Shown: one piece after another, positions 504 to 49,908 of the stretch
How the letters are laid out: each line of letters starts with the position of its first letter
Position numbering within the stretch: position 1 is the first letter of the stretch
From: Perkinsus marinus ATCC 50983
Taxonomy: Eukaryota > Perkinsozoa > Perkinsida > Perkinsidae
Length of the DNA stretch: 56,244 nt
Assembly: GCF_000006405.1 (NCBI RefSeq)
Contig: NW_003216737.1
Location: 76,407 to 132,650 of the forward strand
Direction: 5' to 3'
The notes under the pieces: generated by a model
What the model was told of the DNA's origin: nothing
The model's database searches: none
The model's input: the letters and a program-made list of their open reading frames with translations, nothing else
Made by a program: the position numbers and the translations under genes

Positions 504-1462
504 CTTCTTACCATGTCTTTTCGTCAGGAGCTATATCCAGATCTTTCTGGCTTCTCACTGCTGGCTTGAAGGCCAGAAAATCTGTGACGGAACTCGCCAG
601 GTGGGTACGGGTGTCGCTGCAAGCAGTGCTATGCTAAGCAAGGCCATACGAATCAATGTTTGGGAATGTGATTGTAAGAGATGTGGCAACCCCGAGAGCT
701 GAAAACCGAACACTTGACTTGCAGAACATAATGCATCGCACGATGCTACATGGAATGGTAGTACCATTATGGTACAGCCACCGCTCGCCACGGTCATTCC
801 CAGCGGGTTCAGCCGGGCTGGAAGGCAAAAAAGAGGCAAACAGGAGAGAGACGGGCAAATTGTCAAGATGGTTCCCATCACGGCGTCCCTACACCTGATG
901 GATGGCGATCTATCAACTACCCCTTCATCATGGCTCATTCATTTGATACTATCTCGTAGGCTTCTCTCCTTAGTTCTAACTTCGGAACATGGCATAGGGA
1001 GTGAACAAGCCCAGTAAAGAGGGACCGCACGTTGATTTACTTGAATGAGGGCCGTTAGCTATATGGGTGAATGTACCAGCTCTGTCTACCACGAACAATC
1101 ACGCTGTCTCCATTTCAATAGTTCCACCACAAATCTTGAGGGAGGGGTCCGGCGACTTTGGGTTGACGTCCCGGTTCTGGCCGGGACATGCGACGAGAAG
1201 GTGGAATTGCCAGTTCATGACCCGAGATCCGCGAATATAACTCGCATGACTGACTCACAAGACACTCATGACGGGCAGCGAGTCACTTGCTGCGAGTGCT
1301 GACACAGACTTCTCACAGGAATAGGCCAAAGCGGACATCGAAGAACCTGTCTTGGTTCGTATCAGAAGCTCGTCGTATGTTAATGAGGTGTCTACCCGAG
1401 GACGGGAACTGCCGGGCCAGCTTGTTGTAGGATTCAGGACAGATGTGAGCTAAGTGGTGATT
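504..1462. other. no gene recognised
   Basis: Only short reading frames without recognisable domains occur here. The one structured site is the 14-nt palindromic insertion at 754-775, listed separately. Confidence 0.6.
754..775. repeat. 14-nt palindromic insertion scar 1
   Basis: Geometry pR + rc(pRf) + Rf with p=A, R=ATGGTA, f=C. R is at 755-760 and 769-774; the inverted 8-mer is 761-768. All bases fit without mismatch. Confidence 0.85.
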
Positions 1463-1543
1463 CTAGTGTTTAGAATCTAAACACTAGGTCGTGTTAACAC
1501 ATCTAAACTTTAGATGTGTTAAGTTAACACTGTTAACACGACC
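1463..1543. repeat. cluster of nested perfect palindromes
   Basis: 1463-1487 is a 12-1-12 palindrome and 1494-1522 a 14-1-14 palindrome. GGTCGTGTTAAC at 1487-1498 is repeated inverted at 1532-1543, so the second palindrome sits inside a larger inverted repeat. TTAACAC recurs at 1494, 1524 and 1533. Consistent with stacked inverted-duplication events. Confidence 0.85.
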
Positions 1544-3075
1544 AAGAGGGATCTTAATATAGGTGGTTGGATGAAGTAGTGAAGTTGGAGTGACAATATG
1601 GAACGCTAACAGCTGGCCGTGCAGATTAACTTTACATTAAACATAGCACGTAAGTACAATGACTGCGCGAGAATAAAGGCGCCGGCTTCACGCCACCTGT
1701 TTATGAGGTCTTGAAGGGCCTTCTTCCTTGGCTGCAGCCGACGACTGAGTGACTGCTTGGGCAGCCTCTCGCGAGAGGGAGTACTTCCCCATTCTTTACA
1801 AAACATACAACAATATCAATTGTTAACCGGCGGTGCACTAGTGTCCAGGCACTGCATGACAGCAAGGCACAGTCGATGGAAGGGCTTGCACTGCTCCAAA
1901 TTCGTCACTATTCGATACAAATTAGACGAGACGTCGCCAAGGACCTTCTTCCTAGGCGTTGTAAGATACGGACAGGCTCGAAGGTCATGGCGAACATCCC
2001 CTACAGCGCCCCTACAGCCGCAATTGGGAGACACAACTTGTGGTGGACTCTCGCGCAAGGGCGCAGTCATTGCAACTTCATTAGCCTGAGGCTAATGAAG
2101 TTGCAATAGCCTAGGCTAATAGCCTCCGACATGTTAAGTCGAAGATTGAGATTGACAGAGCACGCACACGCTAGTAACCGCGGATAGTGCATGCGACTAC
2201 AAGACAGTGGTGATTCCAAGCTCCTATCTCTTTTTACACCCGATAGTAAGCAGTTCGCTAGTTTTATCCATGGCGAGAAATTAAAAAGAGAGTTGTTAAG
2301 GAAAGAAAACGCGATGAAATCACCATCAAATGGGCGTCAGCAGGGCAGCAGACAAAAGTGATGGATGCAACAGCATGGAGTGCATAACATTACGGCAGAC
2401 ACGAACGGCAAAGGGACAAGTAAGACCCGCGAATAGCGAAAGCATTGCGGAATTGCTTGCTTTTCTGTCGACACCTTTACGAACGTGTTAGAACAGTGAC
2501 TATGAGATACATTGCGCATAATCGAGGTCGCCGACTACAACACCACGTATGAGAAGACAGTGATTGTGTACTGTCCGCTCCTAGGCAACCGACTCTCTCA
2601 AAGATATCATTGGGCATTTAGGAGCCCCCAACTAAGAGAGTGATCAGGACAAACCGCTTATGAGTAATAACCATTCATGTGTTGAATAATTGCGTTCAAG
2701 GCATCAACTCATCATACCGGCACCTACGGGTCGAGGGAACTGGACATGCCCAAGCTGTTCCGTGTGTGAACATGGACTACATATCGTTAGCACTCTAAGG
2801 GACAGTCTGGGCGTTGAAGACGTTGAACAACCCTACCCAAGTGGATTTACAAAAACTCAAAAGACCAGCTCGAGCCGCAAGAAGTAAGAAACTTTTAACC
2901 CTGTAAAACGTGAGAATCCACTAAGGTATACAATTGGAAGAATTACTCTAGAACAGTTGAAGTTATATAATCAACGTCAGCAGGAAAACTTTATAGCAGC
3001 ATATAAGGTAATAGCATCACACTATAACAGGCTTGTCTGACACACACATTCCCCATATAATCTACAAGACAGGTT
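1544..3075. other. no gene recognised
   Basis: No frame with recognisable protein features was found on either strand. The stretch holds the palindrome cluster at 2069-2125. DNA just before 3076 is the 3' flank of the downstream minus-strand gene. Confidence 0.6.
2069..2125. repeat. 19-1-19 palindrome with adjoining palindrome
   Basis: 2069-2107 is a perfect 39-bp palindrome with 19-bp arms and a single G centre at 2088. It runs into the perfect 12-bp palindrome TAGCCTAGGCTA at 2107-2118. TAGCCT occurs at 2082, 2107 and 2120, with its inverse AGGCTA at 2089 and 2113. This looks like a compound version of the 14-nt scars. Confidence 0.9.
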
Positions 3076-4773
3076 TCACTCGGATCGGCACTTGCCAGCG
3101 AGTTCGTGGTATTGGTCCAGACAATCGGAATACCCCATCTCAAGAGAGAAACTGTCACCATAGTAGCACTTCACCCATTCCCAGTTATGAACAACATACA
3201 GGGAACCATGGATATCATAGAGGAAATCGAACTGCTCTTGTGTGAGAATACCATCAGAAACTGTACGGGCCTTCAACTCGTTGAGCAACTCCCATGCATA
3301 TTCAATACCACCAGTGGAATCGGGATAAGCTGAGGCATCGTAAGCACACATAGAAAGCTTGTGACAGTATTTACCAACAGTGCAAGAACCCTCCAACATG
3401 ATGGTGATCTTGGCCTTCAAGTTCTCCCATCCTGGTTGAGTACACACAGCACACTGTTCTGTCATCATATAATTCATACGATAAACGAGATCATCTGCAT
3501 AGTCACCGTCAATAGCGTTACGATAGAGCATCATCGTAGCATGGTCGGCATACTGCATAATGTACTGAGTACCCAGAGTATTTTTTTGACCCTCGATGGC
3601 AAAATCGATGAACAAAGAACCAGAGGCATATCCCATCCTCTTGCTAACATCCTTCTTCATCTGCTGAGCCTTCAGTAAAGTCGTCTTGATATCCTCCGGC
3701 TGCATGTGCTCAATATCGTAGCTCAAACCGATGGGAGCAATTTCCCGCATGTCTTCTGCCGAAATATAATTTTCCAAGTACTCTTGGAAGGTATCAACGA
3801 AGTCTGCCATCCTTTTCCCATTGGACTTCTCTGTGTCACCGTAAGTCAACCAAATCCTCTCAGTATTGCCAGTTTGCTTCCTCCATCCCTTCATCCACGG
3901 AAGGAGCCTCTCCGGGTTATGAATACGGTCATAGTTGGTATAATCAGCGATATTCACATACACATCGCCAGTGTTCCACAACTTGCCCATATCAGAAGCA
4001 CCAAAGTCAGTAAGACTGGGGTCACCTGACCTCCAGTAATCCTGGGACCATGAATAGGTACCGAACCGGACAGAACCATCATCATGATTGCTCGTGGTTG
4101 GAGCTGCACTTGTTGTTGCCAAAATCTCCGTGGTCGTCGACAGGTCCTCCGTCGTGTTCATTGTTGATGTAGCCGTTGTCGTCACCATGGACGACGTCGG
4201 TGCCGTCGGCTGAGTAGTCGTCCTCGGACTGGTTGTAGTCGGGGCTACGAACTCAGTAGTGGTTGTAGCTGCTGTTTTGCCACCACTGCAAGAGCACGGG
4301 ACTCCCGAACCTTGGCAGACACTAGGTGTCTCATAGTATTTGCAATAGGAACCAGAAGAAAGACTTGCACAATACTTGTCACCATCACTGCAATCAGTGC
4401 CAGTGGAAACGCTCATCGTCGACGTAGTTGATCGTGCCTCCTTCGTCGTTGTTGACGGATCCGTTGCTATCGTCGTTGACACAGTAATCGGAGTTGTCGT
4501 TGTAGGTTGTGGAGTTGCTTTCGAACTAGCTGAGGTCGGAGGTAAGAACTTAGTTCTAGCTGCAACTGTAGTGCTACCACTACAAGAGCACTGAGTATTC
4601 GAGCCTTGACAGACACTAGGTGTTTCATAGTATTTGCAATACGAACCAGGAATAAGACTTGCACAGTACTCGTCGCCCTCACTGCAGTCAGTGGCAGCAG
4701 AGACGCCCAAAGCAATGTAGGATAGCGTGATGGCGTGAGCCAAGCGATGCAGCATTGAGAGATATAGTAACAA
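3076..4773 (-). CDS. secreted two-Cys-domain protein with barrel-like domain
   Basis: A single-exon gene of 565 aa. The N terminus carries a signal peptide ending near GVSA; the internal Met 8 may be the true start. Two copies of a Cys-rich module follow (about residues 28-67 and 127-165) with the core GSYCKYYETPSVCQGS. They are joined by Thr/Ser-rich, probably O-glycosylated linkers. The C-terminal ~330 residues look like a TIM barrel: short hydrophobic strands such as VYVNIADY, RIWLTYG and the acidic IGLSYDIEHM, reminiscent of the DxxDxDxE strand of GH18 chitinases. Family assignment is inference; a wall-binding or secreted glycosidase-like role fits. It is a tandem paralogue of 6546-8237 in the same orientation. 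The barrel is almost identical between the two, while the Cys-module number and linker differ. Confidence 0.85.
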   Translation of the reverse strand: MLLYLSMLHRLAHAITLSYIALGVSAATDCSEGDEYCASLIPGSYCKYYETPSVCQGSNTQCSCSGSTTVAARTKFLPPTSASSKATPQPTTTTPITVSTTIATDPSTTTKEARSTTSTMSVSTGTDCSDGDKYCASLSSGSYCKYYETPSVCQGSGVPCSCSGGKTAATTTTEFVAPTTTSPRTTTQPTAPTSSMVTTTATSTMNTTEDLSTTTEILATTSAAPTTSNHDDGSVRFGTYSWSQDYWRSGDPSLTDFGASDMGKLWNTGDVYVNIADYTNYDRIHNPERLLPWMKGWRKQTGNTERIWLTYGDTEKSNGKRMADFVDTFQEYLENYISAEDMREIAPIGLSYDIEHMQPEDIKTTLLKAQQMKKDVSKRMGYASGSLFIDFAIEGQKNTLGTQYIMQYADHATMMLYRNAIDGDYADDLVYRMNYMMTEQCAVCTQPGWENLKAKITIMLEGSCTVGKYCHKLSMCAYDASAYPDSTGGIEYAWELLNELKARTVSDGILTQEQFDFLYDIHGSLYVVHNWEWVKCYYGDSFSLEMGYSDCLDQYHELAGKCRSE

Positions 4774-6270: not shown

Positions 6271-6545
6271 CTTGATGATTTTCTCCGAAAACCTCCCATT
6301 CCTCTGGTGAGAGGATAAGAGGAACTCAAGTTAACAGAACTGAGGGAAACGAAATCTCCGAACCTCCTTGATACACCTGGGAATTGAACCAGATACACAT
6401 CAGTAAAGTACAATCGAAACTGTATGAAGAACGTTGACAAACAACCATAATATCAACATACAAGTCATGTACAGAGTCACGCAAAAATGCTCGGGAAGCA
6501 ATCATTTCCAGACAACTTGTATGATACAAGTCAGGTATACAAGAT

Positions 6546-8237: not shown

Positions 8238-9240
8238 ATTAAATACTACGGAGCGACTCCGATAGAGTTCAAACGGTCACACAAACTGCTACGTCATTCT
8301 CGTCCATCTACTAGACTAGACTCTCTGTTAGAGCTGTGTTGTGTAGACATGTGCTGAAGGGGACAAAAGCTCTTCCACACAAATTATTGTGATATCATGC
8401 CCGCAGGCCTTCTGCTAAGTTGCTGGTCGATTCTTCTCACGGATATCGGTTCGGATGCGAGGAGTCCGATACGATGACGAGTATGATATCGGATGCTAGT
8501 ATTCGAATGTGTGATAGAGGCTCTTCACGAGTCGAGCTTTATTTTGGTTCTTGTTCTAGTCGAGCAACCATTCGATGATCCTTCACATTGAATGATCGAT
8601 GGTATGGCAACAACGATAGCATCACAACTCCGTATATTAGGGCGGAAACTCTGCGATCGTGGACTCATCCTGTTTTTGTAGTATACTTCTCTATTTGATG
8701 TTAGTTTGCTATCGCTATTAACTTGCTCTACTACTTTCGTGCTGAGCTTCTCCTCTGGTGCCGTATCGGCACTGCCGATACTCTTGCTCATCACAGTGTG
8801 ATGATATTCCAGATTCTACTATAGTAAGGGGGCCAGCAGTTAGATCGTATCAAAAAGCAAATCACATCTACAACAGATACGGTTGCGTTAAACAATCCTT
8901 TGGTGCTTTCTATCACACCATTTCGATGACGAAGATGCGGGTCTTGTCTACTCAATCAGGTCGTCCTTCACACGCAGATACCATAGCGGATATGATGTTT
9001 GGAAGGTGTGGTATGGCAATAACCACAACGCCACGTCAACCAAATAGGATTACTGAATCAAAAGTGTTGATAGCGGCATTAATGGTCTCCTCTAAGATAC
9101 TCATTCAGTAGTCAACTCTACGAAGAGTTCTTGAGCTAGAATACGATGCAACACTGTGTGTATTTCTGTCGCCAGGCTTCTATCTGTTGCTTTCGAACAT
9201 TCAATAACCGATTCTTGTAACGGCGATAAGGCTCAACAGA
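8238..9240. other. intergenic, no gene recognised
   Basis: Only short unconvincing frames. Contains the 14-nt scar at 8758-8779. Confidence 0.5.
8758..8779. repeat. 14-nt palindromic insertion scar 2
   Basis: p=G, R=TGCCGA, f=T; the left copy of R is TGCCGT (one mismatch). The inverted 8-mer occupies 8765-8772. A 9-1-9 palindrome is visible at 8763-8781. Confidence 0.8.
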
Positions 9241-21252: not shown

Positions 21253-22689
21253 AACTATCCCAAATTGGGATTCCCAATATATTCCTACGTGCACGCACAA
21301 GGAAGACCGTTTCGTTGTGCGGTAGCTACGCTAGTAGTGTACGCATCCCTAGTACTCAATGTAAGGAGTATACGTACTAGGCCTTCTCGGAGAAGGGACG
21401 GAGCTCGCGTCATTCGCGCAAGAACGATTAACTCGATCGACTCCCGCGCCGAAAATTGGAAAACGAAAAGGTCGCAGGTTCGATCCCCACGGACGTCATT
21501 TCTACCGCAATTAATTTGTCGGCGGTTTTCGGAGCAGTTGCTGATGAGTTGATCGAGTACGCAGGGTTTCATATTTTTCGCAAGATCCCCAGACCGGGAG
21601 CTTTCGAATGGTGGTTCATACGTTCTCATATCTGTTGTGGATCGGGCATACGCATGCACGCATGCACGCACGCACCAACACACCAACGCACGCACGAAGT
21701 TATCGTGAAGTGAGAGAATACGCTCCGTTCGCTTCGCAATCAAGTATCCAAGCTCTCGGAGACATTGAAAACGAGTAAGCTCTATCTATTACTACCCTTC
21801 TGGTTGTGTTCTATCGACAAGTTGCTATATCATCGTCCAATGTTGGAGGATGATGGCATCCAACGTGCACAGGAGTTAGGTCCAATGATGATGCGGCCAT
21901 TGTGGAATCACTTGTGGAGGTGTGTAGTTCCTTTCCGATTGAAACTATCTTAATAACAAGTGTTCAATCCAAGTATGCCGTGTTAACTGAGTACCTCATT
22001 TAGTCATGTTCTTCGTAGGCTCCGATTATCGGTGTCAAATCATCATCCGATCCTTATCGCCTTCTACCCATCTGCTAAACTTTCCCAGAGCGAGCTCCTC
22101 TCTTGTTGCTACTATCAGCACCGATCGTGCTAGTAGCCTGTATTAGTACGTCCTCAATGAGGACCCTCAATGTCGTCGAGCGGTAACCCGAAACTTTCGG
22201 GTTACGTAACAGCTAGTTCTATATACCGCAACAACAGGCACTTTCGAGTTATGCGTGCGTGTCTGCGTGCAGAATTATTATGGCTTAACTACGAAGCGTG
22301 GGAGGCTATCAGATAGGTCAAACGACTTCTCAATATGCGGAGGTGTTGGGAAAACTCGATTATGCGAACAGCTCGAAGAGATATGCACGATAAACTGATG
22401 ATGGAGAAATGTCCCAGCCGGGGATCGAACCAGGGACCTATGTAAAATTCATTGATTGACTCCATTGACGTGGGCTCAGTGAGCTCCGCCCCTTCGTCAC
22501 GAAGGCCTAGTTCCTAAACCGATATGTTGACGAAATTTGAGTCCCCTAAACCGCGCACCGTCGAAATTGGCGTTTCAATAGGAGTATCTTGGGGCACGAA
22601 CTCGCTCGCCTGGTGAAATTGAAGTTTTTAATGTTGAGATAGAGGTTGAAAAGGTGTATTTTATCAACGAATTTACATGCATTAGCAAG
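21253..22689. other. spacer between inverted arms; tRNA-like and CG-rich repeats
   Basis: Contains B-box-like GGTTCGATCCC at 21477-21487 (plus) and its counterpart on the minus strand at 22420-22431, typical of tRNA-derived repeats. A CGCATGCACG-type simple repeat lies at 21650-21700. Palindromes occur at 22183-22205 (11-1-11) and 21382-21396 (7-1-7). No protein gene recognised. It also serves as the shared upstream region of the two divergent myristoylated-protein genes. Confidence 0.6.
22183..22205. repeat. 11-1-11 perfect palindrome
   Basis: GTAACCCGAAA, centre C at 22194, then the exact reverse complement. GTAAC is repeated at 22206-22210 immediately after it. Confidence 0.9.
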
Positions 22690-29585: not shown

Positions 29586-30169
29586 AATATTGCATAGCCT
29601 TTTCATTGTCATTGTTACATCAGTGTTTTCCGTCGGTCTGTCTATGAGCTCATTGTGACTATGAGCTCGATGTTGGCTCGTCATCTCTTTTCAGAGTTTT
29701 CATGTTGTTGGTGTTGTTTGGTTGAATATAGTGTGGGAATGTACCCTAAACAGTGAAATCCGGCGAAAGAATCTAGTCGGAATTTTAGTACCACATTTTT
29801 TTAATTCGAACGATGAGCGTTATCAAAGAAACGATGAATTCGCTGAAAATGTTGATATCTCGATAACGCATGATAATGATGGTATTCACAGAATATTGAA
29901 AATTTGTTAACCATTATGAAACTTGAGTCAATGGTTAATGAAATCTAGAACGTCTATCTACAGTCGTACTCATAAAAACATCGACTAGATTCGAGCTAAG
30001 CTAAGATCCCATACTTTTGCACTCTGTACAACTACAATATTCCTGTATGTAGATTAGCGTAACATAACACAACCAGCTTCATATAAGGTAATCCTCGTGA
30101 AGAAATATTTGTTATTATTAATAGGGTGGTATACCCTCGAGAATAGTCATCAGAATCGGAGTTCATAGA

Positions 30170-31401: not shown

Positions 31402-31536
31402 CATACACTGTATGCGCTACAGTTGGGCTGCTGATCTCTGCGCAACATCATATAGTTGTTGAGCCCTCATGAAACAATATTTACAACCAGGGCTACACTG
31501 CGCAGTTCACATTGCATGATATTTGTTGATGCATTT

Positions 31537-31558
31537 GACTGGTGACCAGTCACTGGTC
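31537..31558. repeat. 14-nt palindromic insertion scar 3
   Basis: p=G, R=ACTGGT, f=C. R at 31538-31543 and 31552-31557; inverted 8-mer 31544-31551. Perfect fit. Confidence 0.9.
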
Positions 31559-31637: not shown

Positions 31638-31659
31638 TTGTCTCGGAGACAATGTCTCC
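31638..31659. repeat. 14-nt palindromic insertion scar 4
   Basis: p=T, R=TGTCTC, f=C. R at 31639-31644 and 31653-31658; inverted 8-mer 31645-31652. Perfect fit. Confidence 0.9.
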
Positions 31660-31799
31660 ATATGCTCTCTATGCATGCTTTTTTACATCCATAGATGGCA
31701 TGGTTATCTGATATTATCATCAGCTATTTCTGTCGCAAATCAATTTTCTTTCGCTCAACTCCTTATTTATGGATTTACTGTAACCACCCATATTGTGTT

Positions 31800-32005
31800 C
31801 AGTAATATGGAGGTTTGGGTGGTTGCCACTGGTTCATCAAACCCGTGGCGCTTCTAAACTTTATCTCCTATATACAACATCCTAGTTATAACACCAGGTC
31901 AGCCACGAAGGTCAATAAACTAGGGTGTTGTGAAACCACTCAAATGGAGATAATCTAGAAGCCCTCCCAATGAACCGCCCAAACCAGTTCATCAAGTTTC
32001 CGACA
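31800..32005. repeat. long imperfect hairpin (fold-back)
   Basis: The left arm (~31800-31890) and right arm (~31918-32005) pair with interruptions. Paired strings include GTTTGGG(T/C)GGTT, GCTTCTA, TATCTCC and ACA(A)CA.CCTAGTT. It abuts the 3' end of the decayed tyrosine recombinase. It could be the inverted terminus of that element or a source of hairpin RNA. Confidence 0.55.
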
Positions 32006-32880
32006 TCAAGTTAATGTCCTCAGCATATGTTGCACTCGAGCGCCGACAACTATGACCTGTAAACTTCATCATATCCCCAATTTCTTGCTTGGAGATATCA
32101 AAACGCTTCGACAGTTCCATACCAAGTTGTTGAGCATTCGTCGGCAACTTCTAATAGATCTTATCAAATATTCTCAAGCATGCTGGTACACTCACAACAA
32201 TCTTTGCCATACGGTGCACCACACAACATAATCCTCTATGCATACGCTGATCCTTAAAATGTACACATTCCCGCACTATAGTCTCAGAGGAACCCATTTT
32301 TGGTAACACCCAACTCAATCTCTATAGTCATATCTATCGATCCTTAAGATGCACCATCAATAACTTTGATATCCTTTGCTCGAATTTCCAATAACTCTCC
32401 AGATCGTAGAGCTAATAAAATGCCCATTAGGACAGCATCCTTGGTTTGTTCAAGTTCCACCGTTTTTAACATACCAACCGGTATTTTGAACATACTTTCC
32501 GCTACTTTTCCGGTATCGACGGAGCTTACCTCTTTTTCATCTGAGGTTTTATCTTACGCGCCGATTGCAGCGTCCGAGCTACCAGCTTAAAGCTGGTAGC
32601 TTTTCTTCCGATCTCGAAATATCACCGAAACCATGTAATTGGTTGAGTGTCTTCAATCCCGATGTGTATTTCGATATCGTTGTGTACTGCAATTTTATTG
32701 ATTCCACTAAACCCCTCACAAACGTAACTTCAAACCAGACAATGGGAATTCCATTCCCGTGGATTTATATTATTTATAGGCAGATTCGTAACCTTTTTTT
32801 ATTTCTGCTGATATATAAAGCTCTAGGAAATCAAGGAGATTCTTTCTCCCCTCTTCCGTTTCCGCCCTAGCTTGATGAGA
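32006..32880 (-). pseudogene. decayed tyrosine-recombinase mobile element
   Basis: Reading the minus strand, an N-terminal core-binding-like helix region (NLLDFLELYISAEIKKGYES, ~32800-32860) is followed by LVESIKLQYTTISKYTSGLK. Then comes LALRSGELLEIRAKDI (32370-32412), the Arg-x-Gly-Glu box I of tyrosine recombinases. Finally TGHSCRRSSATYAED (from 32061 downward) is the His-x-x-Arg box II. These are the catalytic landmarks of Crypton, DIRS/Ngaro and phage-integrase-like enzymes. Several stops and frame changes break the gene, and the terminal Tyr region cannot be read. One break is the 14-nt scar at 32582-32603: removing 14 nt rejoins the frame on both sides. Confidence 0.65.
32582..32603. 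repeat. 14-nt palindromic insertion scar 13, breaks recombinase frame
   Basis: p=C, R=CAGCTT (right copy TAGCTT, one mismatch), f=T. The inverted 8-mer AAAGCTGG is at 32589-32596. It appears as a 12-1-12 palindrome at 32577-32601. Confidence 0.8.
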
Positions 32881-32949
32881 AGCCCACTCAGTAGACTTGG
32901 AGAATATCTACTTCGATGCAAAATATTTCAACACTTATTCAACACAACA

Positions 32950-32987
32950 AACAAACGCAAGTTGCGTTTGTTGCGTTACGCAACAAA
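32950..32987. repeat. two overlapping odd palindromes flanked by AACAAA
   Basis: 11-1-11 centred on 32961 and 10-1-10 centred on 32977. AACAAA lies at 32950-32955 and 32982-32987, with its inverse TTTGTT between them at 32967-32972. It resembles the scars but with extra palindromic filler (11 and 9 nt). Confidence 0.85.
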
Positions 32988-33174
32988 TTACTTTCAAATT
33001 ATATTCTGTTGATGACGGGAAATCCGTTTCCCAGTCGACACACACCGAGTATCAACTACTAACATCGGATTATATCCTAGTTAAAAGAACACTCACAGAA
33101 ACAAACTTCCAACCTCACACAAGATACCCGTATTGACTTAATACTATCAAGTATCGGGCGTACATCGCAACCGG

Positions 33175-33411
33175 CTATCGTTTAGCTGCCGTATTATCTC
33201 TCGGGCCCTGCCCCTGATTGCTAATAGCTCTTTTATCCATATTAGTATCCCTTTGCTGAGTAGTAGGCGGTGAATGCTCACCAAACTTGCAATCTTTATA
33301 TGGGCAGTCTTCTTTGGTAAACCTGCATGTGTTTTCCCACACCATTTTTGACATATTTCTCGCCCCAAGTGCATTCGATTTCCCCAACATCGGGGAAGCA
33401 TCCGAACGCAC
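33175..33411 (-). other. zinc-knuckle-like reading frame
   Basis: A 78-aa frame with TCRFTKEDCPYKDCKFGEHS, a Cys-x6-Cys-x4-Cys-x4-His pattern near CCCH fingers or Gag knuckles. It lies between recombinase remnants and a second decayed gene on the same strand, so it may belong to one mobile element. A splice-acceptor-like TCTTGCAG precedes it. Confidence 0.35.
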
Positions 33412-33622
33412 CTCTGCAAGACGCTCAGGCTCTAGACTCTAGTCAGAAAGATAGAGAATGCCTGATGATCTTCCATCTTGACCTCATCATGAACAGGGGA
33501 AGACTGCAACAGTCTTATGCATAACATCATTCGCTGACGATAACGTCGATCAAACAACTGTGCTTTACCAAAACCGTGTTTATTTGATATCGAAGCAAAC
33601 CTCGCAGCATACTCAGTGACTA

Positions 33623-34404
33623 TTACTCACAGACATGTATCAAGTCACCATTGCCCTCAAGAACATATATAGTGAAAGCCCACCGCAACATCAATGGAAG
33701 CCATTGCACAAAGGTATTAGGAAGCTTCCCCGTAGGAAGTATCGCAGTCTCCACAGCTTGACCATCTAGAGTAAACTGTATAACAGACTTGCTGGCCGAC
33801 GCGGTGATCTCAGGAGAAGCCGTAAGTTCAATAAATGAATATCTATCTCGAGACAAGACCACCGCAACATGCGGAAAAGGAACCTGGTTCCTGGAACCAG
33901 TTCATTATCGGGTAGACAACCAAATAACTTTGCCGCTGCCGCGAGTATCGTATCCACGGAGAACTTCGCCTTCACCATATCCTCTTTTTTGAGAAGCAGC
34001 AGCAATCAATGCCGCTCTGAGTCTTGCTCTTCTCAGTCTCACAGCGATAACATCAGTCTGAGGCTGTTCGGCATCATTATCCAATACGGCACCCATAGCG
34101 ACAGCACAAGCATCTACCATTTCCCCCAACAATTCGGCATCATCAACCGCTGCCTTCAACGCTCTCGAAGAGTCGACCGAAAAGGATGGCTGCATTAATG
34201 TCTCAACTATGGTCCCAGACGGATCTGGATTCCAGGTTCTGGAGCAGTTGAAAATGTCGACGTCAACAACGGTGCATCCATATTTTCAGACAAAATATCT
34301 AGAAAAGGAACTAAATTAAAGAGATAAACAAAATGCGAGGGCAATTCAAGCATAACGCCACTCCAAGGCGGCTGGAACTCGAAATCACCATGAAGATGAA
34401 TCAA
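33623..34404 (-). pseudogene. decayed gene of unknown family, two or more frameshifts
   Basis: Good coding character moves between frames: LELPSHFVYLFNLVPFLDIL, then MQPSFSVDSSRALKAAVDD, then KFSVDTILAAAAKLFGCLPD, then YSFIELTASPEITASASKSV to the stop at 33623. The shift near 33966 is one base in a six-base A/T run. The shift at 33878-33899 is exactly the 14-nt palindromic scar; removing it restores a continuous frame. No domain recognised. Position beside the recombinase suggests a mobile-element protein, but that is inference. Confidence 0.6.
33878..33899. repeat. 14-nt palindromic insertion scar 5, breaks coding frame
   Basis: p=A, R=GGAACC, f=A. R at 33879-33884 and 33893-33898; inverted 8-mer 33885-33892. 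Perfect fit. Confidence 0.92.
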
Positions 34405-34529
34405 AACAATATAAACGAGCAGTAATGCGAAAGAATAATAACACTCATGATAAACATGTATGTGATTAGAAAATCATCACGACTACTTAGTACGCGAAGC
34501 TAGTAGTTTGCACAAATCTAGCGTCGCAC

Positions 34530-34551
34530 TACCCGATTCGGGTAACCCGAA
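34530..34551. repeat. 14-nt palindromic insertion scar 6
   Basis: p=T, R=ACCCGA, f=A. R at 34531-34536 and 34545-34550; inverted 8-mer 34537-34544. Perfect fit. Confidence 0.92.
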
Positions 34552-34780: not shown

Positions 34781-34802
34781 ACTATACAGTATAGTCTATA
34801 CT
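34781..34802. repeat. 14-nt palindromic insertion scar 7
   Basis: p=A, R=CTATAC, f=T. R at 34782-34787 and 34796-34801; inverted 8-mer 34788-34795. Perfect fit, 24 bp before the start codon of the UVR-motif gene. Confidence 0.92.
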
Positions 34803-35688: not shown

Positions 35689-35710
35689 CGTTGAAATTCA
35701 ACGGTTGAAT
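35689..35710. repeat. 14-nt palindromic insertion scar 8
   Basis: p=C, R=GTTGAA, f=T. R at 35690-35695 and 35704-35709; inverted 8-mer 35696-35703. Perfect fit. Confidence 0.92.
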
Positions 35711-37272: not shown

Positions 37273-37996
37273 ACGAGTGTTCGTGAGCAGTAACATAAGC
37301 TCCGCTCACTCCGCAATAAGCATTCAATCTCCTGTGCCCCACTCAGGAAGATCAATGCATCACCACTTTGGCTCTTGGGTGTAGTGGTCTGGATTTTCTT
37401 CAGTAAGGCCAGGTATGGGCCTTACTGCACTCTAACTCTGTATTTCAAGGGAGTTAGAATAAGGAGAGCTCATCACAGGAAATGCCGCGTGACGCGGCCC
37501 GCGTCCCATACAGCTCCGAATAGCTAGCAGGGCAAGCCGGAAACGCCCGGAGTCCTTCTCAGAATGCATCTACTAGTACCAACGTTGTACAGGTGCACAC
37601 TACGGGAATCTAAATTAACCAACGCCACTCGGTGGTACAATTCAAACTGACATGAAGAATTTTTTTAACTCATTATCTCTAATATTAACTGAAATCTCCA
37701 TCTTGAAGACTCGATGCGTCGTAAAAGACGCGCCGTTCGGCCACAACATATCGAGATCAATCCGGGGAGCTAGGTTTGCGCGCACCATAAGGGTGCACGC
37801 ATGTATAATGAAAGAAAGCAGCTGCTCCATGCTGGAGCCGGAGCATATACATGTGTAATCGACCATCCTTCACTCTGGAAAATCTTCATTCCATGTATAT
37901 GTCGGTTTGAAATAAGATATGTAAGTCGACAGGCTGTATTATCTTCGCTTGAAATTCTAACTCTTGTCACCAAGGTCACATCCAACCTCATTTAAC
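37273..37996. other. intergenic, no gene recognised
   Basis: 3' flank of the sterol-desaturase family gene. Holds a 10-bp stem with a 7-nt loop near 37400-37427. Confidence 0.5.
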
Positions 37997-39143: not shown

Positions 39144-40663
39144 AGTGTGAAGCACTTTCGATCGTATCTACCGAGCCAAATGACATCAGTTATCCATTTG
39201 GTGTGCATTTCCCGTTTTACCACAGCAGACGAGGTGGTAGTACAAGAAGCGCCAATCTGCTGAGCTTCTTTCGTAGGATAGGAGTGGTTCATCGAAGAGT
39301 TGAAGCCTTCAACTGAAGGAGGACTGATGACCGGTTGTAGAATCGTGACGGTGAAGCAGTATCACTGACATCTTTTCTCATTGCGCTCCATCAGGTACTC
39401 AGAAACATAGCCATAGCGGGATATATACTCGTAGAATTTCTACGGTGGAAACAATAAGGTGAGCATACATGGGACTCTTATCAAGTCGACAGATGAGGAG
39501 ATTGTCAACTTGAGCGTGGATGGACGGAGTCATTCATACCGCAAGTGACCTAGCGTAATCGACAGTTTGGGCATACATCCAACTAATAAAAGCGGCGGAT
39601 GATGTACATTTTGAACCAGTGCACGGTGCAAAAGGACCATGAAGGAACGCAAGAGAGTGGCACGTGTGGTCCAGAGGTCCTGGAGTGCACATGCAGCTCG
39701 ATTCACGCATGCACGGAAGATACGCTCAATTTACCTAAGACAGCCCTAATCGTGTCGGGCAGAGTATTTGATAAGTGAGTTTTGGCTAAGATTAGGAATT
39801 TTTTTCCAAATCCAGGCCGGTTTTGTGAAGATGTGAAGTTGCGTTGCAAAGTTTCGGAACTTGTTAGAAAAGACCTACATTTCGTACGTTCTGCTCACGC
39901 GTGCGTGGGCAGACCTACCTGCCGTCTCCTTCAGAAGGAGACATGGAGGCATGTACTATCTCCTATACCGTACCTATTCCTATCCATGATATCCCCTATT
40001 CCTATTCATTGATGAGAATCATCATCAAACGACTCTATAGTACATAGCTTCATGGAGTATGAGAGGTGGTTGGCGATAATGCGTGTTAGCAGAGATGAAG
40101 ACGAAAAGAGATCATCGTCTTTTGCATTCAACAATAGGCGCCATCGAAGTTCGAATACAATCGTTATAAAACGTGCAATACCTTTTGCATTTTTTGTCGT
40201 CAATGCAAGGCACTCGCTGGTGTACAGCAGCACTGAGAAGATCGAAACCTTTAACACAGTGAATTAAGCTTTCAAGAAGATATCGTGGGATTTCCACACT
40301 GCCCGTAATCTTGCCATTCTTTGCCCTGCTGCTTTTATGCGCTCCGTAATCTCTTTTTCGTTGTTGTGTGAATCTGAGAATATAGCTCCAACAATTTTTC
40401 TCTTTGACAGCTCATTTATCATTGTACCCATCTTTTGTCTGCCAATATGTGAGCGGGTTGAGCGTCCGGGTTGCTTGTTAGTGTCCAATAAGGGGAAGCC
40501 GTGCGGAGAGTTCCTCAGTTTTTCGCTGAGCACTCGATGTGTGCGAAATGGCGCTTAGTCACGTTGAGTGTTGAACGCGTTCACATGCGAGTCTCTATGG
40601 TCTAGTGCATCTTCTTAGTTCTCTGGCTCGAATCTCACGCACTACATTCTACTCCCCATATAT
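39144..40663. other. no gene recognised; contains a 155-bp inverted-repeat arm
   Basis: Arm 39515-39669 is listed separately. A 9-1-9 palindrome lies at 39924-39942. Short frames have no recognised content. Confidence 0.5.
39515..39669. repeat. 155-bp dispersed repeat, inverted partner at 42759-42913
   Basis: Near-perfect reverse complement of 42759-42913; shared strings include CAAACTGTCGATTACGCTAG and ATGTACATCATCCGCCGC (in the partner's orientation). The two copies flank 3.1 kb. Confidence 0.93.
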
Positions 40664-40926
40664 ATGAAAAGCATCTTCCACCTTGTGTTGGTCGTCACTG
40701 CCATCGTCTGCTTTGCCTATGCAGTAAACGATGATGTTGGAGGGAGGCAGGTTCCGCAGCCAAGGATTTTGGGTGGTGAGATGTGTAAGAAATGCCCCCA
40801 TAATTGCCAATGCGCCCCAAGAACACCCAGTTGTTGGTGTCCAGATGGTAAGCCATGGCATTCTCTGTGAATGTTTCTTGTATAATACTGAATACAGTTC
40901 CATGCTCAGGTTTGACGAATGAATGA
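40664..40926 (+). CDS. small secreted Cys-rich peptide
   Basis: Exon 1 is 40664-40847 and exon 2 is 40898-40926, around a 50-nt GTAAGC...ACAG intron (40848-40897). The product is ~70 aa. The signal peptide MKSIFHLVLVVTAIVCFAYA is clear. The mature ~50 residues hold seven Cys in the pattern CKKCPHNCQC ... CWCPDVPC, a compact disulphide-knot style. Without splicing the frame ends in KPWHSL and loses the last Cys. Function unknown; such peptides may be antimicrobial, inhibitory or host-directed. Confidence 0.65.
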
Positions 40927-42594
40927 GGAGTTGAGAGGCGTCTTGCATGAGTGATGGACATTGAACGCGTCGGTCAGGCCGACCTACAGTCTTGTGGTAT
41001 TCCCACAAAAGTCCTTTTTTGTTTCCACCTCACCCCTCATTATCTCTCTTTGACTTAGTCGTCATATCTTTCTATACTTATACAGTTGTCTGTGCGTTTA
41101 GTGGGAAGTGTCAAGGTCAGGAACTGCCTCCCAGAAAAAAGGAGCTGTTCTACTTTCTGACACGATGGCACGCGTCGTGTGGGTTGGAAGCACCGCTCTG
41201 ATTGGCGTGGTTCAGTTCGACAAACAAATTGAAGACTTGATTAGATTCGTTGCACAATTCCAAGGCTCGGAATCCGAGCTGAACTTGCTTGCAAGTGTTC
41301 CAAAATCCATTGATGAAGATTTCTCGGTCGATACACGAACGGATGATCGATATACAGCATGTGAGTGTAGAGAGTGCGCTCCGCAGAGAAAACTCGTCCA
41401 AATGATCGAGAAAGTTCCCAGGAGATTCAGAACTTCTGACCAATCCCGTTGTGTACCTGCAGCAGTTGCAGTATTTCCGACTAGGCTCGGCTGGCCCACG
41501 AAAGGTCACCGCGAGAGAGAGTGTCGACCGGAAAGTTCCTTCGAACAACCCATTTCGGTCAGCGTAATCACTGTGACTACTCCTCGAATACCATGCAAGT
41601 GAGGCAAATCCTCTGCGCGGAGATTCTATTATCCTAACGCAACAATAAAGATCAACAGTTGAAATTCAAGGCAACGAGGTAACTTGGGGAAACTCGTCCC
41701 CTCTGATGGAAATTTTATATCTGCTCAGGCCGCGCTAAGCATCAAAAGCTGAATACGCTATGAGACTCATAGTAGGAGTTGTAGCCTATCACTGTCCCAA
41801 TGAATTTTCAAGTTGGCTCACATGCACAAGCTTCGAGAATCTCGAGCTCAAAAAACAGTTTGATCGGAATGTGCTTCAGCACAATACGTGAGCACAGGTT
41901 TGAATGCCACGCTCTACATTTTCCTCACTCTTTATGGCGCATGGGTTCTGTCCGTTACTTATGTCATTCCCTCAGGCAACGATCTGGAACACGTTAAAAA
42001 TAGGAGAATTCCCTGTTTCTAACATGTTCCAGATCATGATCTGGGACTCATCCAAGTTGTCGCCGCCGTATTATTCCAGTAACAATGCAGTGTTTCACAG
42101 TAGCTTCCGCTCCACTGTCTGGATTGTCTGAACCATCCACACGATTCTCTGTCGGCTCCGCCTCGAGTAGCCTTAGTGTAGTTCCGCCAGGCATCTCTGC
42201 TAGTGCTAAGAAACGTACTTGCCGAGAATCTGTAGGCTCGGCAGTTGTATCGGTTGATCCTCCGGGAGGATTATTCCCCCTGGTGCTCACGCGGAGCCTC
42301 CATGCAAGCTCAAGCTAGACTATACCAAGTACGAGTACACCGCTTAGAATAACTTCTTCTTTGGTAGTCTCTAGTCATGAGCTCATTGGATGCCTTAATA
42401 CCATGATACAAGGTACTCCTACCGAGATATCCTGCATACCACGTAAATGCACATATCTATTACACTTATCTGTTGTTTGATTCGATGAAATGTCAGATGA
42501 ACTCAACTTCCGAAGTTCGATCCTCGCTCCAACTAGACCCTGGTCACCACTGTGAAAAGCTAGCCGCTAGGAACTACAGCATTTCCAGGTCAAA
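40927..42594. other. no confident gene
   Basis: A 164-codon plus-strand frame (41108-41602) and a 132-codon minus frame over the same DNA are open, but neither shows a domain, signal or biased composition, so neither is called. An imperfect hairpin with ~16-bp arms spans 41984-42036 and is followed by a perfect 16-bp palindrome (CCAGATCATGATCTGG). Confidence 0.4.
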
Positions 42595-42714
42595 TTAATT
42601 TTTCACCGACAAACTTAATTTTTTACCCATTTGGTTAACGTCTTACCTCTTCAGTTAACGTTTTACCCATGGGTTTAATAAAATACCAAGAAAATTAATA
42701 TTATACCCGGTATA
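42595..42714. repeat. six diverged 20-bp tandem units starting TTAA
   Basis: Exact 20-bp spacing of TTAA at 42595, 42615, 42635, 42655, 42675 and 42695. Most units continue ...TTTTACC/CATNNNG, but the rest of each unit has diverged. Confidence 0.8.
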
Positions 42715-42758
42715 TTTGAAAGTTTAGGAGTTTAGTTTAATCAAGGCGCGCCCAATGT

Positions 42759-42913
42759 CCACACGTGCCACTCTCTTGCGTTCCTTCATGGCCCTTTTGC
42801 ACCGTGCACTGGTTCAAAATGTACATCATCCGCCGCTTTTATTAGTTGGATGTATGCCCAAACTGTCGATTACGCTAGGTCACTTGCGGTATGAATGACT
42901 CCGTCCATCCACG
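42759..42913. repeat. 155-bp dispersed repeat, inverted partner of 39515-39669
   Basis: See the partner copy. No coding content recognised. Confidence 0.93.
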
Positions 42914-43061: not shown

Positions 43062-43619
43062 CTAACTTAACTGGTTGATCGCGCGCCCCTGTTTGTATTG
43101 TACAAACAGGGTCGCACAAGTCAGGCTGCGTATGAAGAGTATCGGGCTCCAACAGTCGCCTTGTCTTAAGCCACGGTCCAGGGGAACAATTCGTTCCTTT
43201 GAGCTTATCCGGATGCTTACTTTAGCTGACTCATACCAATTACGGATAATCCGTAAGTATTTCAAATGTACACCAGCCATCCTTAATGATTCATATACAT
43301 GCGACCTGGATATTCGATCAAATATCTTGCGGAAGTCTATGATCGTTAGTGTGAGCGGTAGATCATATAGCTTGCACTTATGTATTAGGAGATGTATTGC
43401 ATGTACTTTTTCCAGGCCAGACCGTCCGGCCCCAAAGGCCGTCTGTGATGCGTCGACCGAACTGTCCACTTGAACATATATTCTGGCCATAACGATCAAG
43501 CTGAATATCTCAGCGATGGCGCTTTGGGACAATACTGTATGGAAGCTGAGCTTCCGAAGCTCTTGCAATTTTTTCTGGATGTGCTTTTGTAAATGGGAGT
43601 AACCTTCGAGGTGTTCCAA
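43062..43619 (-). mobile_element. LINE-type reverse transcriptase fragment
   Basis: A 185-codon minus-strand frame contains QTAFGAGRSGLEKVHAIHLL, LTLTIIDFRKIFDRISR and LDRGLRQGDCWSPILF. These match non-LTR retrotransposon RT motifs (Q.GF..GRS..., ..FIDF.KAFD.., RG.RQGDP.SP.LF). Asp in IDFR is retained. The family's GDP reads GDC and the YADD motif is absent. Sequence identity to the family stops near 43130, just before an 11-3-11 hairpin at 43087-43111. Truncated and inactive. Confidence 0.75.
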
Positions 43620-43961
43620 TCGTCTGGTAGGCGTTCTGTTCTAAAGCATATCGAACATACTTTACGCACCCATTTTGCTATGGCTTTCCTGCTTTGGAAG
43701 AGCGCAGCTTCTCCGCGGTTGAAACCGTGCCAGAGAGTTGTCTTTCGGCGAAGCCTGGTTTAGGACAGCGATTGCCACAATCGCTGCCGGCACAAAGCGA
43801 CAATCTGAGTCCTTCAAGCTGCCAAGCTTGTCACACAAGCCAGACTGTCTTGACAACGTGGAGTAGTGTATGTGTTAAGCGTGATATTTTTTTAGTTCCA
43901 TAATGAAACTTTCATTCGCATGGCTTGACCCATCGAATGGTCACTTGGTCACCAATGCTAT

Positions 43962-44467: not shown

Positions 44468-44489
44468 GATATCAGTGATATCATATCAC
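44468..44489. repeat. 14-nt palindromic insertion scar 9
   Basis: p=G, R=ATATCA, f=C. R at 44469-44474 and 44483-44488; inverted 8-mer 44475-44482. Perfect fit. Confidence 0.88.
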
Positions 44490-46245: not shown

Positions 46246-46267
46246 CATCAGATTCTGATGATCAGAA
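46246..46267. repeat. 14-nt palindromic insertion scar 10, empty site present
   Basis: p=C, R=ATCAGA, f=A. R at 46247-46252 and 46261-46266; inverted 8-mer 46253-46260. The paralogous site near 30148-30160 reads straight through (GTCATCAGAATCGG), lacking exactly these 14 nt. Confidence 0.97.
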
Positions 46268-46794: not shown

Positions 46795-46837
46795 CCAACA
46801 CACGTAGTTGACCATGATGATCAACTACGTGTGTTGG
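46795..46837. repeat. 17-bp stem hairpin upstream of secreted-protein gene, copy 2
   Basis: 46795-46811 is the exact reverse complement of 46821-46837 with a 9-nt loop identical to that of the copy at 30685-30723. Confidence 0.88.
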
Positions 46838-47352: not shown

Positions 47353-47394
47353 TACTTAGTAATACTCTTAGAGTATTCTTAAGTATTACTTACA
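47353..47394. repeat. palindromic insertion flanked by TACTTA
   Basis: TACTTA is repeated at both ends and its inverse TAAGTA lies inside, next to an 8-1-8 palindrome. Copy 1 near 31470 has only CAATATTTACAACC at this point, so ~34 nt were gained. Confidence 0.8.
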
Positions 47395-47444
47395 ACCAGG
47401 GCTACACTGCGCGGTTCACGTTGCATGATATTTGTCGATGCATT

Positions 47445-48224
47445 CAACATTTATTTTGCGCTGTCACTTGGCTCAAAGTCAAGTCTTCCCAGTGCTAACT
47501 CAAGAATGTCGTCGTTGTCTACGGAGTTAACCATTAGTGAATGATAGTGATGCTAACTATAATAGAGCTACTATCAACATCGTAAACGGACAATCCGTTT
47601 AATAACGTGCAGTAAGCGTTGGGTGCTCACCCTATGCGTGTCAGCGGAGCGACCGATGTCATGTTTGTGGAAAAAGAGACTATCCGCAGTGCAGGGGCTC
47701 TCCCTTCATATGGCTTAACCCCATTTAACTACTGCGTGTAATGTCATATCTATTAGCTCTGCAATGGATCTTGGATCTTGACCAGCGAAGGATTGTTTAA
47801 TGTGAATACGGCATTTGTTGCGCCGCGCAACTTGCGCGCGCGCCACTTTTTTACTTCTGAGCCATGGAATCCCATCGAATACGGGGTTGCGGGAGGTAGC
47901 AACCGTGATCGGTCGGCCCGTCGGTATTCTCAACCGTAATGACCCAAACCGGTTGGGCCACACACGGTCCGACCACATCAGGTGCTACCAATGCCTTCAA
48001 TTGACCTCGTGACCCCCACGTAGCTGCGCGAAGGGCCCACCTGGGATGGAAGCCGGACGTCCGGTCCTCCAATTGTTGGTGGGATCAGTATGAAGGCATC
48101 GCCATATTCAAGCGAATAAAAAAATTATTCTGGCCCGTCGAGGGACCCCTCGACACTCGGGGTTGAGCTCGGCCTCACAGCCGTACTCGATCCACGTTGT
48201 AGACCTTTAAGGTCCAACTCAAGG
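47445..48224. other. no confident gene; possible transposase HTH remnant on minus strand
   Basis: The minus-strand frame 47715-47978 ends QDPRSIAELIDMTLHAVVKW, which resembles the helix-turn-helix of Tc1/IS630-type transposases. No catalytic part follows. A perfect palindrome CCGGACGTCCGG is near 48055. Confidence 0.3.
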
Positions 48225-49700: not shown

Positions 49701-49843
49701 CCAAGAATCTTGTGTATTCAGAGTTCGCAAGAACTATGTAATGCCCGAATACATCCGATCGAGGCGCCTACTCTACCCCAACTCAACAACACTCCGGGGT
49801 AAGCACCAGCGAGGATCTCGTGTATTCGGAGTTGGCAGGAATT

Positions 49844-49865
49844 GTGTGATCCTCACACTGTGAGG
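49844..49865. repeat. 14-nt palindromic insertion scar 11
   Basis: p=G, R=TGTGAG (left copy TGTGAT), f=G. The inverted 8-mer CCTCACAC is at 49851-49858. The first tandem unit lacks it. Confidence 0.85.
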
Positions 49866-49886
49866 CCCGAATACATCCGATGTAGA

Positions 49887-49908
49887 CCCTCACAGTGAGA
49901 GTCTCACT
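49887..49908. repeat. 14-nt palindromic insertion scar 12
   Basis: p=C, R=TCTCAC (left copy CCTCAC), f=T. Inverted 8-mer 49894-49901. One mismatch in total. Confidence 0.85.

Follow-up and report, generated by a model that had tools for sequence, protein, structure and literature searches.

The stretch of DNA analysed here (hereafter the window: 56,244 nucleotides of the Perkinsus marinus ATCC 50983 contig NW_003216737.1) contains, besides a copy of a repeat family, a series of 22-mers that share a single geometry. In each of them, an 8-mer pRf, where p and f are one base each and R is six bases, appears extended to pR-f'R'p'-Rf (primes denote reverse complements), a gain of 14 nt that creates two overlapping palindromes with one-base centres. 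A scan of the window for this form returned 14 sites that fit perfectly and 11 with a single mismatch, whereas five dinucleotide shuffles gave 0.0 of either kind, and no other length of R gave a comparable signal. A preliminary description of this DNA had listed thirteen such sites, and all 13 of these 22-mers are real and present at their positions, 9/13 being perfect and 4/13 (8758, 32582, 49844 and 49887) showing one deviating position in a comparison among the three R copies; under a stricter count, against the first R copy, these four differ by 2, 1, 2 and 2 letters, respectively. The list was not complete, however, and the perfect and one-mismatch sites beyond it are marked in Table 1.

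Table 1. Footprints and related features of the window. No feature has an assigned strand; "listed", included in the preliminary description; "added", outside it.
Feature	Position	Source	Copies compared
Footprint, perfect	754..775	scan, listed	
Footprint, one mismatch	1277..1298	scan, added	
Footprint, perfect	1516..1537	scan, added	
Footprint, one mismatch	6509..6530	scan, added	
Footprint, one mismatch	8758..8779	scan, listed	
Footprint, perfect	21257..21278	scan, added	
Empty site, 8-mer CATCAGAA	30148..30155		paralogous copy of the 46246 footprint
Footprint, perfect	31537..31558	scan, listed	
Footprint, perfect	31638..31659	listed	C197 copy without it (gap of 15)
Repeat-family copy	31755..34540		six near-full-length relatives aligned to it
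Footprint, one mismatch	32582..32603	listed	six relatives without it; another footprint in C217 lies a few bases off
Footprint, two mismatches	33130..33151		also in C217, C55 and C181 (perfect in C181)
Footprint, one mismatch	33609..33630	added	also in C217, C55 and C181 (older event)
Footprint, perfect	33878..33899	listed	in 0/6 relatives
Footprint, two mismatches	34223..34244		in 0/6 relatives
Footprint, perfect	34530..34551	scan, listed	
Footprint, perfect	34781..34802	scan, listed	
Footprint, perfect	35689..35710	scan, listed	
Footprint, perfect	37484..37505	scan, added	
Footprint, one mismatch	39430..39451	scan, added	
Footprint, one mismatch	41258..41279	scan, added	
Footprint, one mismatch	41758..41779	scan, added	
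Footprint, perfect	43541..43562	added	C34 copy without it (gap of 15, with a 1-nt difference in the opposite direction)
Footprint, one mismatch	43895..43916	scan, added	
Footprint, perfect	44468..44489	listed	C201 and C119 copies without exactly these 14 nt
Footprint, perfect	46246..46267	listed	paralogue at 30148 empty, exactly 14 nt shorter
Footprint, perfect	47817..47838	scan, added	
Footprint, one mismatch	49844..49865	scan, listed	
Footprint, one mismatch	49887..49908	scan, listed	

Length spectrum in the sampled genome

When the scan was extended to 311,199 bases of this genome (the window among them), the combination of offset 1 (the length of p and of f) with R = 6 yielded 59 perfect and 43 one-mismatch positions, with shuffles again at 0.0 and 0.0; the 59 positions include repeated copies and reduce to 55 distinct perfect 22-mers. 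Every other combination of offsets 0-3 with R of 4-10 gave 0-2 perfect sites in these bases, the exception being offset 3 with R = 4 (4 perfect), an excess that we rejected as a sub-case of the main class, about 1/16 of whose sites are derived to satisfy it by chance at the two outer bases. Even the alternatives with the same gain, offsets 0 and 2, gave 0 perfect sites each, against 59 for offset 1. The spectrum of R lengths, which the preliminary description had singled out as a check, is thus a single spike with nothing in the shuffles, and the duplicated unit of the sole enriched class is 8 nt long. The spacing of direct repeats likewise peaks at 14, with 119 repeats, 61 of which enclose an inverted copy; the other spacings from 6 to 20 have 36-95 repeats each, 0-5 with an inverted copy. 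The tandem-duplication class was left out of the counts because runs of N match themselves.

With L001 and L002, both of which lie inside the window, excluded, the distinct 22-mers number 120 when up to two mismatches are allowed and 91 when up to one is allowed, 55 of them being perfect; 90 of the 91 have full unmasked flanks. The 311 kb are a non-random sample, made up of the contig to which the window belongs, starts of contigs, regions surrounding hAT domains and some of the repeat copies, so that footprint densities cannot confidently be scaled to the genome; the starts of four other contigs (90 kb) contain just 2 sites when up to one mismatch is allowed.

Copies with and without the gain

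So did these structures arise as insertions into ordinary sequence? Comparison of related copies indicates that they did. Within the window, the paralogues at 30148 (empty) and 46246 (filled) differ by exactly 14 nt. In the family of seven copies that comprises 31755-34540 and its six relatives (one ORF of this family has no Pfam match), there are 12 gains of 14 nt, 10 of them exact, that is, about one per 41 substitutions, and of the 20 indel blocks that span 4 nt or more, 11 include the 14-nt form (12 events). The same copies also have insertions of 8, 10, 13 and 23 nt, and C266 and C316 have a common +14 without clean geometry. Four further 14-nt differences separate L014 from L016, whose alignment is usable only across the homologous part, the gaps beyond being noise that was not counted; one more is found at 44468 and one in C305, and at 43541 and 31638 the filled and empty copies differ by 15-nt gaps. 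When the in-window pair is included with these, the geometry is exact in eight of nine differences and has one mismatch in the ninth. Length differences in the search tables were used solely to pick the stretches to compare.

The empty copies have the plain 8-mer. Such empty copies, whose absence the preliminary description would have counted against its reading, exist in the window pair, in the seven-copy family and among copies on other contigs. Furthermore, some gains are common to the more similar copies (C55, C181 and C48; C217, C333 and C158) and are therefore inherited rather than read errors. The seven aligned repeat copies contain no element-sized insertion; among the other repeat-family matches, with 40 of 63 candidates scored, one such insertion was read, in C241.

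hAT elements and the target preference of the 8-mers

The prediction that this genome holds hAT elements with 8-bp duplications was borne out: the hAT dimerisation domain PF05699 has 14 matches, all above the Pfam cut-off, and 27 of the 31 element copies read for both ends are flanked by exact 8-bp target duplications. Three element families have such duplications, with the ends CATAC..GTATG, TAGGGTGGCA and CAGGGTGTGAT. In the CATAC..GTATG family, the hAT domain lies inside the element ends, and three 4.3-kb copies are 99.9% identical, which implies recent activity; the second and third families we take to be hAT from their duplications and end sequences. One relative of the repeat copy in the window carries a CAGGG-family element, at another site. 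Five 8-bp candidates came out of an inverted-repeat scan, one of them a real element; the other four were rejected, their "duplications" being palindromic and located within larger inverted repeats. Empty and scarred states are seen across the sites. Two occupied sites were searched by their joined flanks for scarred copies, and neither such a copy nor an occupied footprint 8-mer was found: one search returned the element's own flanks and two 73%-identical relatives, the other its own flanks alone.

In the 87 distinct footprint 8-mers, the T2/A7 positions of the motif nTnnnnAn conform in 73/174 cases (42% vs 27% expected, p = 2e-5). For the element duplications the value is 25/54 (46%), with 15/22, 7/16 and 3/16 in the individual families, so that the preference is strong in only one of the three. 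At position 1, the footprint 8-mers show a further bias towards G and away from T that does not belong to the hAT motif. Judged by the sequences, the nTnnnnAn preference of the footprint 8-mers is the hAT target preference, of the Ac/Hermes type; nTnnnnAn is given for Hermes in the available part of the source (PMC10368747).

Origin of the footprints and comparison with known systems

The single length spike, the empty copies, the hAT elements with 8-bp duplications and the target preference all support the excision origin proposed in the preliminary description, and we consider it likely that every one of the 22-mers marks a donor site from which a hAT-superfamily transposon was excised and whose repair followed one stereotyped course. 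The footprint 8-mers would then once have been target duplications of hAT elements. In this scenario, an element would insert and duplicate the 8 bp pRf, as seen at 27 elements here, and at excision the transposase would nick one base outside each element end, leaving hairpins on the flanks. A nuclease of the host, or the transposase, might then open the hairpins on the far arm to give 3' overhangs, f'R'p' and pRf, which are complementary because both flanks have the same 8-mer; the overhangs could anneal and, with gaps filled and strands ligated, yield pR-f'R'p'-Rf. With hairpins offset by one base and an 8-bp duplication, the gain would be fixed at 2×8−2×1 = 14 wherever the hairpins are opened, provided that the overhangs overlap. 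The complement of the base adjoining each transposon end would become the one-base centre of each palindrome, and the centres found here are compatible with just such a one-base hairpin offset, as in a hAT footprint. In Ac/Ds footprints, the palindromes have as their centre the complement of the base adjoining the element (PMC5873905), and the Kat1 hairpin forms mostly 1 nt from the end repeat (PMC4763223), according to the portions of these reports available to us.

Classical short hAT footprints show no clear excess over shuffles (pRf'-p'Rf, 3 vs 1.8; pRf'Rf, 12 vs 14.4; pRp'Rf, 21 vs 13.8), and the heterogeneous end-joined products of the studied hAT hosts are not what is found here; such heterogeneity is a repair outcome and lies outside a definition by transposase. 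A broader proposal, which we put forward tentatively and with somewhat less than even confidence, is that in this lineage hAT donor sites are repaired by one near-deterministic route, in which the hairpins of the two flanks, probably kept together up to that point, are opened and then anneal via the duplicated target. Nearly every excision would then give the same 14-bp double palindrome, which would have become a leading source of short insertions in the repeats of this lineage, and the genome would be a readable fossil record of transposon departures.

Could the scars have arisen without a transposon? A template switch in replication or repair that copies a fixed 8-nt patch of the opposite strand and returns, the alternative named in the preliminary description, gives short inverted copies in place and needs no occupied allele, none having been found at the two sites searched. 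Yet it does not account for a single exact length offset by one base at either end, nor for the identity of this length with that of the hAT duplication, and it leaves the T2/A7 preference, common to the genome's elements, unexplained; variable patch length is the mark of such mutation, and a single length is observed. We regard this account as decidedly improbable. That the structures are due to chance, to a fault of sequencing or assembly, or to insertion into palindromes already present can practically be dismissed: the shuffles gave 0.0, related copies have events in common and the empty copies have the plain 8-mer.

A transposase might also act without settled insertions, if a hAT enzyme or a domesticated relative broke DNA with hairpin ends in failed or very brief insertions, so that most scars never had a resident transposon; we know of no pathway of this kind and think this very unlikely. 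In its favour, footprints far exceed settled elements in the sample (in the 160 kb of C80, 37 with at most one mismatch vs one hAT-like element with an 8-bp duplication by the inverted-repeat scan), the 12 footprints of the seven repeat copies and the lone insertion in C241 point the same way, and Kat1 is a domesticated hAT enzyme able to make hairpin-capped breaks, as described in the accessible part of the report (PMC4763223). However, ordinary cut-and-paste also yields many scars per surviving element, because each jump leaves one while the copy number can stay flat, and degraded elements would be missed by an inverted-repeat scan. Duplications of about 8 bp are made by several superfamilies, so the scars could in principle belong to one other than hAT that also forms flank hairpins, a reading to which we assign a very low probability. 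Perkinsus marinus does have Dada transposons; in zebrafish, a 6-bp duplication is proposed for these, as far as the available text goes (PMC3706591). Nevertheless, in the portions of the literature at hand, both the one-base offset of the hairpins and nTnnnnAn belong to hAT, and hAT elements with recent copies are present in this genome.

Hairpin footprints of hAT elements are already known; what the hAT excision reading adds is a single product that is near-invariant throughout a genome. The preliminary description held the constant length and density of the 14-nt footprints to be undescribed; searches of an open-access library listed no report of either. As a class, however, palindromic hAT footprints have been amply documented, and in other hosts a single short footprint may predominate at an individual site. 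The accessible portions of the literature on Amoebophrya introners and on Dada transposons (PMC3706591), both of which mention Perkinsus, describe no such scars. So far, hAT excision has usually been read from limited sets of mostly short footprints in engineered assays. One uniform product spread through a natural genome makes departures findable by sequence alone, datable against substitutions and countable without the transposon. It also offers a clean test of hairpin opening and joining, the gain being predicted from the duplication length and the nick offset (2×8−2). An event in a coding region would always cause a frameshift, 14 not being divisible by three. Furthermore, these breaks may be repaired by annealing instead of simple end joining in an alveolate, which is neither plant, fungus nor animal.

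Among the known systems, V(D)J coding joints have hairpin-ended flanks and palindromic P nucleotides after off-centre opening, as proposed here, but there is no target duplication and hence no self-complementary overhang, and the products are diverse. In the parts of the reports available, Hermes has 8-bp duplications along with its nTnnnnAn preference (PMC10368747), and TcBuster is similar in its hairpin-type repair, but its footprints in human cells consist of a few inserted bases, with deletions of up to 50 bp in a few cases (PMC3499496). For mPing, of the PIF/Harbinger superfamily, the complementarity of the two target-duplication copies steers repair, whereas the cut is modelled as staggered at the duplication without flank hairpins, and the original sequence is restored (PMC4561436, in the accessible portion); a principle of this type combined with a flank hairpin would give the fixed 14-nt gain seen here. 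The studied hAT systems, as far as the available texts tell, have mostly short, varied footprints. The closest parallel comes from Ac/Ds in yeasts and plants, with palindromic insertions from flanking DNA, hairpin opening and microhomology joining, but there, in the portions accessible to us, 28 footprint types occur among 128 in Candida albicans, palindrome arms reach 20 nt in baker's yeast, and the single footprints that may predominate at a site (35/128 and 18/128 in Candida, 11/17 in Arabidopsis) are short ones (PMC5873905, PMC1978519, PMC4561436). In the genome analysed here, by contrast, one 14-nt, two-palindrome product dominates at unrelated sites.

One footprint length, in clusters

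The preliminary description had claimed thirteen footprints, that is, 22-mers of the form pR-rc(pRf)-Rf that derive from an 8-mer pRf (R = 6) and are 14 nt longer than the plain 8-mer; all thirteen were confirmed in the window, 9 perfect and 4 with one mismatch. The single length of R held up as well, with R = 6 standing out in the window scan and nothing comparable at adjacent lengths. The complete scan of the window yields 14 perfect and 11 one-mismatch sites for this geometry, compared with 0.0 of either kind in five dinucleotide shuffles. Protein matches of two ORFs in the window (see table) assign it to a Perkinsus species. The assembly that contains the window comprises 54.46 Mb in 347 contigs; in a non-random sample of 311,199 bases from this genome (the window's contig with the window itself, contig starts, loci around hAT domains and some repeat copies), offset 1 with R = 6 gives 59 perfect and 43 one-mismatch positions versus 0.0 expected. 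The remaining offset and length combinations tested in these bases give 0 to 2 perfect sites each, with a single exception, whose 4 sites represent a sub-case of the offset-1, R = 6 class. Counting short direct repeats at each spacing, an approach that does not presuppose the geometry, leads to the same result: at spacing 14 there are 119 such repeats, 61 of them with an inverted copy between, as against 36 to 95 repeats, with 0 to 5 inverted copies, at the remaining spacings between 6 and 20.

The footprints cluster: when 160 kb of contig C80 are divided into 32 bins (5 kb each), the 37 sites that have one mismatch or none are confined to 11 of them (variance/mean 3.3). The loci around hAT domains number 14, three of them near-identical copies; 12 contain one or more such sites (L004 and L007 have none), and none of the 30 window sites with two or fewer mismatches falls inside the two conserved ORFs that were checked. 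This distribution could in part reflect local jumping, selection against shifts of the reading frame, or both.

Features of the window, with coordinates in nucleotides
Feature	Coordinates	Description
Repeat pair	2950-8237	copies 2950-4747 and 6407-8205, 80% identical; tandem arrays of 24 nt, 45 nt and 53 nt within and between the copies
Long palindrome around CCCGGG	about 13566-13612	inverted insertion, larger than the 14-nt class; missing from the related copy at 26541-27075
Large inverted duplication	18643-25292	arms ~2.6 kb, 95% identical, 1.4-kb centre; perfect footprint 21257 starts a few bases past the left arm
Amino-acid transporter ORF	28308-29585	P. chesapeaki 69%; P. olseni 78% (85% of query), 77% (60%)
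Inverted arms	39515-42913	two 155-nt arms, 99% complementary, 3.1 kb between; no obvious terminal target duplication; may be a terminal-inverted-repeat element or belong to a repeat
Reverse transcriptase fragment (PF00078)	43062-43619, minus strand	contains a perfect footprint at 43541
Palindromic 34-nt insertion	47353-47386	relative to the paralogue at 31478; by eye, outer part matches the 14-nt footprint (ATACTTAC), inside which another 20 nt are nested
Pescadillo-like ORF	51309-52265	matches two proteins of Perkinsus olseni at 83% and 78% identity

Copies with and without the gain

The claim that each footprint is a gain of 14 nt is borne out by a duplicated segment within the window, the copies of which at 30148 and 46246 differ by exactly this length, one reading CATCAGAA and the other CATCAGA-TTCTGATG-ATCAGAA. 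Furthermore, the segment 31755-34540 is a member of a repeat family of undefined type, and its alignment with six near-full-length relatives contains 20 blocks in which the copies differ in length by 4 nt or more. In 11 of these 20 blocks there is a 14-nt gain with the footprint geometry, and one block holds two independent gains, for 12 events altogether; 9 of these are exact in the alignment, a tenth (33878) is exact by the window scan, and the other two (window sites 32582 and 34223) carry mismatches. Copies of greater similarity (C55, C181 and C48; C217, C333 and C158) have some gains in common, which are thus inherited. The tree of the seven copies has a summed length of ~0.18 substitutions per site, or ~500 substitutions over 2.75 kb, which translates into one scar per ~41 substitutions in this family.

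Other copies provide eight further cases. At site 44468, copies on C201 and C119 are shorter by exactly the 14 nt; 15 nt are absent at 43541 in C34 and at 31638 in C197; C305 shows a gain of 14; and L014 and L016, two stretches of this genome, differ by four 14-nt events, all with the plain sequence in the opposite copy. In these eight cases and the in-window pair, the geometry is exact in 8 of 9 and has one mismatch in the ninth.

Length differences of other size or form also occur. One other 14-nt block in the seven-copy family is a deletion in one copy and lacks the geometry, as does a +14 shared by C266 and C316. C55 and C181 have a 13-nt insertion holding a repeated CTCTAGAG and a 10-nt insertion for which we have no explanation, the same being true of an 8-nt insertion in C48. 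The 23-nt insertion at 32955-32977 contains, by eye, the 14-nt footprint (AACGCAAC) and 9 more nt, namely a second copy of the inverted 8-mer plus one base, and possibly reflects repeated excision there. Opposite window position 33426, L041 and L042 carry an insertion with two CTCTAGAG copies and AATG between, which matches the hAT target consensus with both duplications kept.

hAT elements and a probable route to the footprint

The whole-genome search for the hAT dimerisation domain gave 14 matches, every one over the cut-off. Three element families have 8-bp target duplications. Family 1 includes three 4.3-kb copies that contain the hAT domain, are 99.9% identical, end in CATAC..GTATG and have perfect duplications, along with at least 10 shorter derivatives; families 2 and 3, with the ends TAGGGTGGCA and CAGGGTGTGAT, respectively, are presumably hAT as well, judging by their duplications and ends. 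Exact 8-bp duplications flank 27 of the 31 copies examined at both ends (11, 8 and 8 in families 1, 2 and 3); in the C250 and C23 copies the two sides mismatch, and in two others one side is unreadable. Four additional copies, outside the 31, were taken at one end only. One family 3 element is inserted in a relative of the repeat copy that lies in the window. A 1159-bp hAT-like element (L020:6537-7695; ends TAGGGTGGCACG, duplication AGCCGATG) has inside it one perfect and one one-mismatch footprint, which implies that such elements themselves served as landing sites.

The footprint 8-mers bear a hAT signature. Among 87 distinct 8-mers, T2 or A7 is found in 73 of 174 cases (42%) versus 27% expected (p = 2e-5), a preference present both in the window (22/50, p = 0.008) and in the rest (51/124, p = 6e-4); nTnnnnAn is given as the target preference of Hermes in the available part of one report (PMC10368747). 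The elements' own duplications (25/54, 46%) do not differ from the footprints in this respect (Fisher p = 0.64). By family, the preference is strong in family 1 (15/22), not significant in family 2 (7/16) and absent in family 3 (3/16). At position 1 of the footprint 8-mers, G is favoured and T avoided, for which we know of no hAT precedent.

This genome thus demonstrably holds the elements, the 8-bp duplications beside them and the product, and the footprints most likely arose by opening and annealing of hairpins. Transposases of the hAT type produce hairpins on the DNA beside the element; in the accessible text on Kat1, the hairpin lies in most cases one base away from the end of the element (PMC4763223). 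For an 8-bp duplication pRf with hairpins offset by one base, the strand of the left hairpin would read pR-f'R'p' and that of the right one f'R'-pRf. If the hairpins were opened on the far arms, the resulting overhangs f'R'p' and pRf would be complementary because they derive from the two copies of the target, and annealing, filling and ligation would give pR-f'R'p'-Rf. The gain would be 14 no matter where in the overlap the hairpins opened. This formula yields the sequence at 46246. We infer the tie between a particular element and a particular scar; a search of two occupied sites found no element at a footprint 8-mer.

Comparison with known systems

Among the papers listed in searches of an open-access library, none describes a near-invariant 14-nt footprint in its title or displayed abstract. 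As far as the available portions of the published accounts go, the footprints of Ac/Ds in yeasts and plants take the form of palindromes whose centre is the complement of the base adjoining the element, and in baker's yeast and Arabidopsis most of them show microhomology (PMC5873905; PMC1978519). Those in Candida albicans are varied, with 28 types among 128 footprints, two of the types accounting for 35 and 18 (PMC5873905), and an identical short footprint made up 11 of 17 in a study of Arabidopsis (PMC1978519). From similarly partial sources, TcBuster leaves small insertions and deletions as its footprints in human cells (PMC3499496), and for mPing the target duplication steers repair (PMC4561436). 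What is new here is that one long product is near-invariant across unrelated sites, its density, and the finding that classical short footprint forms show no clear excess in the 311,199 bases.
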